Source: a virus
Virus record (IMG/VR): IMGVR_UViG_3300023222_000137
Span: 1 to 33,576 of that record
Length of the DNA: 33,576 bases
Reading direction: 5' to 3' (one strand)
Part shown: positions 5,805-25,393 of the stretch, one piece after another
How the letters are laid out: each line of letters begins with the position of its first letter
Position numbering within the stretch: position 1 is the first letter of the stretch
Notes under the pieces: model-generated
Told to the model about the DNA's origin: nothing
Seen by the model: only the letters and a program-made list of their open reading frames with translations
Databases searched by the model: none
Translations under genes and position numbers: made by a program

Positions 5805-6043
5805 TGACCACACTCAAGAATGCAATTGAGCTAGAACTTTATCGTTATGCACAAAATGGCTACAAGAGCAAAGAGCATGTCAAAGAGGCAAAGAAAGCAG
5901 TTATAGAAATTCTCGTCCAAGTCTTGGAGAGGTTGCCTGAGAAGAAAACGATTCTTACTTTCTATGAGTCCACGCTAAAGATAGCAGTAGAAGCACATAA
6001 CGCAGCAATAGACGACATGCGCTCTAGGTTGGAGGAGAAATGA
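5804..6043 (+). CDS. Helical hypothetical protein, 79 aa
   Basis: An all-helical charged peptide (KEHVKEAKKAVIEILVQVLERL in the middle) with no Cys or membrane segment. Start overlaps the preceding stop by one base after a GAGGAGGGG ribosome site; stop overlaps the next ATG by four. No family recognised. Confidence 0.6.
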   Translation: MTTLKNAIELELYRYAQNGYKSKEHVKEAKKAVIEILVQVLERLPEKKTILTFYESTLKIAVEAHNAAIDDMRSRLEEK

Positions 6044-6477: not shown

Positions 6478-6570
6478 ATGAACTGGTTAGAAGTTTCAAC
6501 AATCGTCGTGTTGTTGATTGGGGTGCTTATGTCTTGTGCTTGTTTGATTAAGCTGTATTTCTTTATGTAG
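6478..6570 (+). CDS. Single-span membrane peptide, 30 aa
   Basis: The 30-residue frame reads MNWLEVS followed by about 22 hydrophobic residues and ends at the stop with LYFFM. GGGGAGGG (6464-6471) is a strong ribosome site just upstream of ATG 6478. A small holin-like or membrane-modulating peptide is possible. Confidence 0.5.
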   Translation: MNWLEVSTIVVLLIGVLMSCACLIKLYFFM

Positions 6571-6584
6571 GACAAATAATTCAT

Positions 6585-6659
6585 GGCAACTGTGGCGTTC
6601 TGGTGAAAACGCACGTTACGGCGTCCGTCATAAGCAGGTTCGAATCCTGCCAGTTGCCA
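6585..6659 (+). tRNA. tRNA-like gene with non-standard anticodon arm
   Basis: Acceptor GGCAACT (6585-6591) pairs fully with AGTTGCC (6652-6658), and the pairing can extend one base inward. The T arm GCAGG-TTCGAAT-CCTGC (6634-6650) is canonical. The D arm GCGT/ACGC (6595-6598, 6609-6612) encloses a loop containing GG. The anticodon region is abnormal: the best stem GTTAC/GTCAT has a mismatch, and loop GGCGTCC has G instead of the usual U at position 33 and pairs across itself. Read at the standard place, the anticodon would be CGT (Thr). It may be a degenerate tRNA, an attachment-type remnant or a tRNA mimic. Confidence 0.55.
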
Positions 6660-6666
6660 ACTAATT

Positions 6667-6793
6667 TCAGTCAGGGTGGCTACAGCCATTCAGGGTGTAA
6701 AAAGCCAAAGAGGTATTCCTGAACTCTGCTCACGCCATTTAAGATGCGTGAATGACCCAGGATGAAGCAGACTAACCTACTGCCCCTGACTGA
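6667..6793 (+). ncRNA. Candidate structured RNA of unknown family, 127 nt
   Basis: A perfect 10-bp closing stem joins 6667-6676 (TCAGTCAGGG) with 6784-6793 (CCCTGACTGA). Inside lie a TGGC/GCCA hairpin (6677-6688), a TTCAGG/CCTGAA stem (6689-6694 with 6718-6723), and an arm made of TCTGC/GCAGA (6725-6729 with 6767-6771) enclosing TCACGC/GCGTGA (6730-6735 with 6746-6751). Together these form a multi-branch junction. It sits between two tRNA-type genes in a stretch with no plausible protein frame. I cannot match it to a known RNA family. Confidence 0.6.
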
Positions 6794-6799
6794 TTCACT

Positions 6800-6870
6800 G
6801 TGCGGTTGGTGTAACGGCAGCACGTCAGCTTGTGACGCTGAAGGAGGGGTTCGAATCCCCGCCGCACCCA
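6800..6870 (+). tRNA. tRNA-His (GTG anticodon), compact
   Basis: The anticodon arm is perfect: TCAGC-TTGTGAC-GCTGA (6825-6841), anticodon GTG at 6832-6834 with U33. The D arm GTG/CAC encloses TAACGGCAG. Acceptor GTGCGGT (6800-6806) pairs with GCCGCAC (6861-6867), and CCA follows directly (6868-6870), so the G6800:C6867 pair equals the G-1:C73 identity pair of tRNA-His. The T arm has only four pairs (GGGG/CCCC around TTCGAAT), so the acceptor-T stack is about two pairs shorter than a normal tRNA-His. Confidence 0.8.
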
Positions 6871-6873
6871 ACT

Positions 6874-6887
6874 ACGTGGTATAATTT
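6874..6887 (+). promoter_or_regulatory. Extended -10 promoter motif, copy 1
   Basis: ACGTGGTATAATTT contains a consensus TATAAT (6880-6885) with an upstream TGn element (TGG, 6877-6879), the extended -10 form that works without a good -35 box; none is visible at 17 bases. It lies just after the tRNA-His and 21 bases before the first gene of the packaging block. The same 14 bases recur at 29900-29913. Confidence 0.6.
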
Positions 6888-6907
6888 AAAAAAATGAGGA
6901 ATTGAAA

Positions 6908-7198
6908 ATGAAAATTGGTGAGACAGTAAAAGTCAGGGTCAATGAGTTTCAGTATTACCCGGCAATTATCACGAATGTGCGCGGCGAAGTTCATTCGCTT
7001 TTTGTTTTAGGACCGGAACAGTATGCGGGCCATCGCGATTGCGTGTTAAGCGGTGCTGCGATTGGACAGTTTAGCGAATTGGATGAGAAACAAGAAAACA
7101 AAGTTACGCTGACACCTGAAGCGGAAATTAATACAACTCAAGAAACCACGGAGCCACAAGATGGCGAAAAAGAGAAGGACCAGGAAAAAGACTGGTAA
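6908..7198 (+). CDS. Hypothetical protein with small beta-barrel-like N-terminus, 96 aa
   Basis: ATG 6908 sits 7 bases after GAGGA; an in-frame TTG at 6902 is too close to that site. Residues 1-60 alternate hydrophobic and polar (GETVKVRVNEFQYYPAIITNV), compatible with an SH3-like barrel; residues 65-96 are an acidic Glu/Gln/Thr tail. The last 38 bases overlap the small terminase gene. First gene downstream of the candidate promoter. Confidence 0.6.
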   Translation: MKIGETVKVRVNEFQYYPAIITNVRGEVHSLFVLGPEQYAGHRDCVLSGAAIGQFSELDEKQENKVTLTPEAEINTTQETTEPQDGEKEKDQEKDW

Positions 7199-7610
7199 GA
7201 CCAAGCTTACCAAAAAACAGAAAAAGTTTGTAAATGCGTTAGAAGACCCGGACGTGACAAGTGTTGCTGAAGCATCAAGAAAAGCTGGATATGCTGATGT
7301 CAGCAGTGGTTACAGGAGCCTAGAAAAGCCTTTAATTCAAAGCGCTTTAGAGCATTTTTTAAAAACGCTTGAAGTGCAAGGCGCCACGGACAAGAAAGTC
7401 GCACTAAGAATAGCCCAAGGGTTAGATGCGAAAAAAACTACAGACATCGACCACCACACCCGCCACAAGTTTGTCGAAACAGTTCTCAAAGTAAAACAGT
7501 TCGTCACCGGCGGTTCCAAAGAACCGACACAAGACAACCGAAAGCAGTTAATTTTTATCATTGGGGATGAAGGAAAAACAGGAAAAGAAGCGTTGGAGGA
7601 GATTATATGA
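7161..7610 (+). CDS. terS: Terminase small subunit
   Basis: A 149-residue protein with a Lys/Arg-rich N-terminus followed by LTKKQKKFVNALEDPDVTSVAEASRKAGYAD (about residues 16-46), the typical helix-turn-helix opening of Terminase_2-type small subunits ('LT.kQ..Fv.....g....AA..AGY'). A central helical oligomerisation region and a hydrophobic segment (QLIFIIGDEG) come after. It recognises packaging DNA and hands it to the large subunit encoded at 9621-11054. About 2 kb of small genes separate the pair, which is unusual. The overlap with the gene upstream and the ATGA with the gene downstream are normal here. Confidence 0.8.
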   Translation: MAKKRRTRKKTGKTKLTKKQKKFVNALEDPDVTSVAEASRKAGYADVSSGYRSLEKPLIQSALEHFLKTLEVQGATDKKVALRIAQGLDAKKTTDIDHHTRHKFVETVLKVKQFVTGGSKEPTQDNRKQLIFIIGDEGKTGKEALEEII

Positions 7611-9484: not shown

Positions 9485-9628
9485 ATGGAAACGCTTGAAA
9501 TTGTAATCAAAATTGTTCAATTCGTAGTTTCTTCCTTGGGCGCTTGGTTGTTTGTGTTTACTATTGGATTTTGGATAGGCTTCAGTGCTCGCGTAGAGAG
9601 AGATAATAATTCTATAAATAATGCCTGA
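9485..9628 (+). CDS. Single-span membrane protein, 47 aa
   Basis: The ATG at 9485 is preferred over an in-frame ATG at 9434 that lies in the upstream gene. Residues 6-34 are hydrophobic (IVIKIVQFVVSSLGAWLFVF), followed by a polar tail with RVERDNNS. The last codons overlap the large terminase start. A holin-type or unknown membrane role is possible. Confidence 0.55.
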   Translation: METLEIVIKIVQFVVSSLGAWLFVFTIGFWIGFSARVERDNNSINNA

Positions 9629-11054: not shown

Positions 11055-11169
11055 TGTGGCTGTGGCGGAAGATAGACGCAAGTTAGTGCTTGGAAGGGTT
11101 ATAAGGGACAGCGTAAACCCTATCTCGTAACATTGTCCCATGCAGGTATCGAATCCTGCCGGTCCGCAT
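11054..11169 (+). ncRNA. tRNA-Leu-derived RNA with predicted pseudoknot
   Basis: Ends ATGTGG/CCGCAT (11054-11059 with 11164-11169) can pair like an acceptor stem. TGGCGGAAGATAGACGC (11063-11079) resembles the D arm of tRNA-Leu. CAAG-TTAGTG-CTTG (11079-11092) resembles an anticodon hairpin with TAG (Leu) in a loop one base too small. GCAGG-TATCGAAT-CCTGC (11142-11159) is a T arm with an 8-base loop. In the variable-arm position, AGGGTT (11095) pairs with AACCCT (11116) and GGGACA (11105) with TGTCCC (11134), interleaved as an H-type pseudoknot. It is about 30 bases longer than a normal tRNA-Leu. Function unknown. Confidence 0.55.
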
Positions 11170-11191
11170 GTAATTATAAATTAGGATTTCT

Positions 11192-13760: not shown

Positions 13761-13796
13761 GGTAGACTTTTTATGCTTCACACAATTAAACTATTC

Positions 13797-13852
13797 AGAA
13801 ACCCGTAGACCGATGAATCGGCAACAGTTCATTAGTCTACGGGTTTCTTTTG
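13797..13852 (+). terminator. Strong hairpin terminator, nearly symmetric
   Basis: A 14-bp perfect inverted repeat, AGAAACCCGTAGAC (13797-13810) with GTCTACGGGTTTCT (13835-13848), followed by TTTTG-type U tract (13846-13852) and preceded by an A-rich flank. The loop holds a further ATGAA/TTCAT stem. It should work in both directions to a degree. It separates the terminase-portal unit from the capsid unit. Confidence 0.85.
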
Positions 13853-13865
13853 TTTAGGGGCAAAA

Positions 13866-25159: not shown

Positions 25160-25393
25160 ATGACAACACGGCTTACGATCGACATTCCAGATGACAAAGC
25201 GAGTGCTGTTTACGATTCTTTTCTGCCGATCTTAAATGATGGCACAGAAGAAACGAAACGAGATCATTTTGTCCGTGTTATGTTAACGATCATTCAACGT
25301 CTGGATCAAAACCTTAGATCCTCAAAAGCGCTTGATCCAGACGTTGAGCGAGCGAAACCATTAATTGATGTAACGGAGGTTCAAAACCCATGA
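25160..25393 (+). CDS. Hypothetical protein, 77 aa
   Basis: Small mixed alpha/beta soluble protein (TTRLTIDIPDDKASAVYDSF, then helical HFVRVMLTIIQRLDQNLRSS). The opening 'T.rLtIDIPDDKA' resembles a short RHH-like strand-helix start, but the rest does not complete a known fold. GCTAAGGTAAACCA gives a weak ribosome site. ATGA overlap with the next gene. Confidence 0.5.
   Translation: MTTRLTIDIPDDKASAVYDSFLPILNDGTEETKRDHFVRVMLTIIQRLDQNLRSSKALDPDVERAKPLIDVTEVQNP

Follow-up and report, generated by a model that had tools for sequence, protein, structure and literature searches.

A candidate structured RNA with helix-joined ends in the tRNA cluster of a phage distant from known phages

Stable RNAs of the T5 and T4 tRNA clusters

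The tRNA cluster of phage T5 (AY543070) holds rnaI, rnaIII, rnaIV, rna1, rna2, rna2H and rna3, which measure 73-172 nt and most of which are annotated as 'stable RNA with unknown functions', while the small stable RNAs rnaC and rnaD (species 1 and 2) lie within the tRNA cluster of T4 and are late RNAs checked by Northern blotting (PMC9697503). These RNAs of T4 and T5 are annotated without a known function, and none of them is represented in Rfam. Structured RNAs of another sort, the HDV-like theta ribozymes of gut phages, are likewise found next to phage tRNAs, being located at their 3' ends (PMC10879173).

As a positive control for the architecture of such RNAs, we aligned T5 rna2H (5812-5980 of record L185) with its homologues in records L186-L191, seven T5-like phages in all, and found that the 10-bp closing helix is invariant, hence itself uninformative for covariation, and that nine interior pairs are compensated. 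Judged from this alignment, there is at least one real RNA, rna2H, in which an end-joined multi-arm architecture has been under selection. In one of these relatives, Salmonella phage 9-29, the stretch just 3' of rna2H (L188 519-735) carries a protein-coding annotation versus tRNA-Ala in related phages, which is likely a misannotation.

A helix that joins the ends of a tRNA-cluster gap

The window analysed here, the whole 33,576-nt stretch of IMG/VR virus record IMGVR_UViG_3300023222_000137, contains a gap between two tRNA-type genes with the following features, all on the plus strand:

6585-6659, plus: tRNA-like gene, upstream (ARAGORN; Rfam tRNA 33.0 bits, E 2.5e-5; fold)
6660-6666, plus: 7-nt linker ACTAATT from the 3' end of the upstream tRNA to the candidate RNA (sequence)
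6667-6793, plus: 127-nt candidate for a structured stable RNA (Rfam without match; z of the fold -3.3 to -3.7)
6667-6676, plus: 5' strand of the closing helix, TCAGTCAGGG
6677-6707, plus: predicted arm 1, 5+3+2 bp, stacking directly on the closing helix (MFE and pair probabilities)
6717-6762, plus: predicted arm 2, the longest, 5+2+6+3 bp with internal loops (MFE and pair probabilities)
6767-6783, plus: predicted arm 3, 4 bp with a 9-nt loop, stacking on the closing helix at its 3' strand (MFE and pair probabilities)
6784-6793, plus: 3' strand of the closing helix, CCCTGACTGA
6794-6798, plus: 5-nt linker TTCAC from the candidate RNA to tRNA-His (sequence)
6799-6869, plus: tRNA-His, anticodon GTG (ARAGORN; Rfam 49.1 bits)
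7161-7610, plus: terminase small subunit (TerS), which opens the packaging block (PHROG 51)

An initial annotation, made from the letters of the window, had described a perfect 10-bp helix enclosing a multi-branch layout in a protein-free gap of the tRNA cluster just upstream of the packaging block, and each of these elements held up. The coordinates of the helix are exact, and TCAGTCAGGG is the reverse complement of CCCTGACTGA, with 10/10 pairs Watson-Crick; the 127-nt gap RNA is predicted to fold into a four-way junction made of the closing helix and three arms (MFE -45.1 kcal/mol). There is a tRNA gene on both sides and no credible ORF in the gap (6660-6798), the sole one being an antisense frame of 63 codons that traverses tRNA-His. 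The gap RNA lies on the strand of all recognised phage genes, TerS lies 370 bp downstream and the terminase large subunit (TerL) follows at 9621. The closing helix starts 7 nt past the upstream tRNA and ends 5 nt ahead of tRNA-His, and it retains a pair probability of 0.88-1.0 in a fold that takes in both flanking tRNAs, in which the two tRNAs and the helix form separate domains.

The upstream tRNA-like gene is supported by Rfam as a real tRNA (33 bits). It has a 6-nt anticodon loop, TTACGG, which ARAGORN calls 'Val|Arg (ac)', its acceptor and T stem amount to 13 continuous base pairs and no CCA is encoded, so that the gene could be that of an unusual or degenerate tRNA. In the gap 3' of TerL (11146-11175) there is also a T-arm-like stretch (GCAGGTATCGAATCCTGCC...TAATT). 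A 27-nt alignment of this stretch with the 3' terminus and trailer of the upstream tRNA shows 78% identity. This stretch is possibly a tRNA remnant, and an Rfam tRNA search of it came back empty.

Comparison with phage stable RNAs and the search for homologues

The gap RNA shares the general characters of T4/T5-type stable RNAs, a term that we use for an operational class and not for a sequence family: it sits inside a tRNA cluster, in a gap without protein genes and on the tRNA strand, and its 127 nt and 10-bp helix compare with the ~70-170 nt of the class and with the helix-joined ends of its best T5 members. The closest counterpart in placement is T5 rnaIII (AY543070 30284-30389, 106 nt), which also lies directly 5' of tRNA-His and combines a 12-bp end-joining helix (with G-U) with three arms, against 10 bp and three arms here. 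The coarse structural tree of rnaIII is nearer to that of the gap RNA than are ~97% of shuffles, a figure that is uncorrected for the eight RNAs compared, whereas the two are not alike in sequence (p 0.35 in local alignment) and belong to different phage groups. The rna2H of T5, located between tRNA genes, likewise has a perfect 10-bp Watson-Crick end helix and three arms, but is 172 nt long as opposed to 127 nt. In rnaIV, a single T5 RNA near tRNA genes, a consensus end-joining helix also surrounds three arms, the third of 4 bp as in arm 3 of the gap RNA, but this helix is bulge-interrupted whereas that of the gap RNA is perfect. The T4 RNAs resemble the gap RNA in placement within the tRNA cluster and differ from it in form, as rnaC, whose ends pair weakly, has a T arm like that of a tRNA and rnaD is without an end-joining helix.

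The match is thus one of architecture. Covariance models of rna2H and of rnaIV each found no match in the window, so we rejected membership in either sequence family, as well as membership in the rnaIII family, for which the alignment is at chance, and local alignments of the gap RNA to the T4 and T5 stable RNAs in general remained at chance level. Other identities were discarded too. A tRNA or degenerate tRNA would show a T arm and tRNA similarity, but no tRNA was recognised in the gap by ARAGORN or Rfam, and local alignment to both neighbouring tRNAs gave p 0.11-0.78. The 5S ribosomal RNA model (RF00001) found no match in the window and did match control genomes. The covariance search of Rfam with Infernal, suggested in the initial annotation, attributed no family to the gap RNA: there was no gathering-score match and nothing convincing up to E 10, the two flanking tRNAs alone standing out. 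The earlier statement that the RNA matches no known RNA therefore stands for Rfam, but the analogous T4 and T5 RNAs are missing from Rfam as well, so the empty result says little.

Searches for homologues covered collections from which near-identical records were possibly left out. Blastn of the RNA against phages and plasmids gave nothing above chance, and pattern scans of viral contigs returned 0 matches for the closing-helix pair, for the 3' arm with its closing strand and for the anticodon arm of tRNA-His. The 5' arm gave 3 exact 18-mer matches to unrelated sequences, in which the likeness extends over 18-19 nt only and no tRNAs are nearby. When 1.1 Mb of related loci and 13 complete records were scanned with a single-sequence covariance model, only the gap RNA itself was recovered, and none of these searches yielded a homologue.

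By TerL, TerS and the major capsid protein, the closest relative of the window phage is L102, a 43-kb IMG/VR contig, with identities of 42% for TerS, 51% for TerL, 45% for the portal protein and 58% for the major capsid protein; going by such protein sequences, the window phage is distant from known phages. L102 lacks tRNAs, and its 43-kb record contains nothing that matches the RNA. Upstream of its TerS lies a ~700-nt AT-rich noncoding region (L102 6720-7450), whose numerous GGTAACA repeats run in both orientations. This region resembles an iteron origin or a regulatory array.

Competing explanations and a proposed origin of the RNA

The fold energy of the 127 nt is unusual (z -3.3 to -3.7, with 1/200 and 1/1000 shuffles as stable), but it is the closing helix that carries the signal: deprived of it, the interior is ordinary, with z -1.3 and 108/1000 shuffles folding as well. 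The antisense strand of the gap RNA is equally stable (MFE -47.9), so the fold contains no strand signal, and many coding windows of the genome fold as well as the gap RNA. Nor is a perfect 10-bp inverted repeat at a spacing of 60-200 nt uncommon, as we counted about six independent ones across the window compared to ~4.5 expected by our own arithmetic. These observations favour the main rival of the stable-RNA reading, namely a non-functional spacer that contains a chance 10-bp inverted repeat and whose arms are those that any 107-nt sequence of the same composition would form. What sets the repeat apart is its geometry, since it joins both ends of the gap and spans it nearly from tRNA to tRNA. 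A 10-bp end-to-end helix occurs in 0.1% of gap shuffles and in 0/3,969 segments of 139 nt drawn at random from this genome, and among 29 ORF-free control gaps from the tRNA clusters of two other phages, Streptomyces phage LilMartin and Mycobacterium phage Bongo, the longest end-to-end helix is 6 bp (a stretch of KVP40, having no annotated tRNAs, was left out of the comparison). In these control gaps z goes down to -4.1, as the spacer reading would allow, yet none has a long end-to-end helix. The placement of the repeat is therefore beyond chance here, but as moderate evidence only because the test was framed after the repeat was seen. The ordinary interior, an antisense strand that folds equally well and searches that returned no homologue all count against a stable RNA and keep the chance spacer alive as a serious, if less favoured, possibility.

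Three further explanations accept the helix as meaningful or look to a known ribozyme. In the first, a structured processing spacer, the helix would keep the pre-tRNAs apart and direct the cut of RNase P or of a double-strand-specific nuclease, the excised piece being waste. The single-stranded linkers of only 7 nt and 5 nt would be convenient cleavage sites, and the separation of the tRNAs and the helix into distinct domains in the context fold agrees with such a role. Ten base pairs are, however, short for an RNase III site, and the control tRNA-cluster gaps do without such a helix, so tRNA processing does not need one; we regard this explanation as improbable. We think it more improbable still that the locus is a DNA element, either a miniature terminal-inverted-repeat element or a packaging or origin cruciform upstream of the terminase genes. 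The perfect terminal repeats, the position 370 bp ahead of TerS and the AT-rich, GGTAACA-iterated character of the equivalent intergenic position in L102 could be read in this way, but that L102 region has no sequence like the gap RNA, a second copy is absent from the window and the only possible target duplication is the 2-bp TT. A genome scan with the closing-helix pair, moreover, gave five matches that have nothing in common between the repeats and no tRNA context, and this makes a spread mobile element less likely. A tRNA-associated self-cleaving ribozyme, of the HDV-like theta or the hammerhead type, would be in keeping with the location of theta ribozymes described at the outset. Theta ribozymes need a nested double pseudoknot with a catalytic C, and a permissive descriptor of our own for the HDV-like double pseudoknot found 0 in 6560-6900 on both strands; Rfam ribozyme families gave no match up to E 10 and no CTGATGA hammerhead core was seen by eye. 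The ribozyme reading is thus largely refuted, and we accord it hardly any weight.

The reading that we prefer, at a probability of roughly 50%, is that the gap RNA would be an orphan stable RNA of the T4/T5 kind, excised from a tRNA-bearing transcript. The initial annotation had proposed a functional small RNA, and this proposal is partly supported: it is the likeliest reading, given that the gap RNA matches the stable RNAs of the T5 tRNA cluster in position, size and architecture, but it falls short of proof in that the searches found no homologue and the interior folds like shuffled sequence. From these likenesses we infer that the candidate RNA may be transcribed, excised, stable and functional. 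It would be co-transcribed with both flanking tRNAs on a long plus-strand transcript; cleavage by RNase P at the 5' end of tRNA-His would free its 3' side, and endonuclease cleavage with trimming in the 7-nt linker 3' of the first tRNA would release the other. Its 10-bp end-joining helix could then keep exonucleases from degrading the excised RNA, whose three arms would form a working surface. As to its role, our guess is that it acts late in infection, in connection with the machinery of translation or of tRNA processing.

The occurrence, in an unrelated phage, of a candidate with the architecture and the neighbour of T5 rnaIII suggests that annotation underestimates how common such RNAs are, and end-joined helices that fill tRNA-cluster gaps offer a rule by which they may be searched for. 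It is also conceivable, though we consider it unlikely, that T5-like phages and the window phage independently evolved or exchanged an end-sealed three-arm RNA beside tRNA-His with a shared late-infection function, which sequence methods and Rfam would have missed as only the architecture would be conserved.

Two other structures were noted in the window. The gap 3' of the portal gene contains a very stable structure (13761-13865, z -6.9) with a 14-bp inverted repeat (13797-13848), probably a terminator or processing hairpin, and a ~16-bp perfect inverted repeat (TCAACGTCTGGATCAA) lies at 25294-25347 within a predicted late gene.
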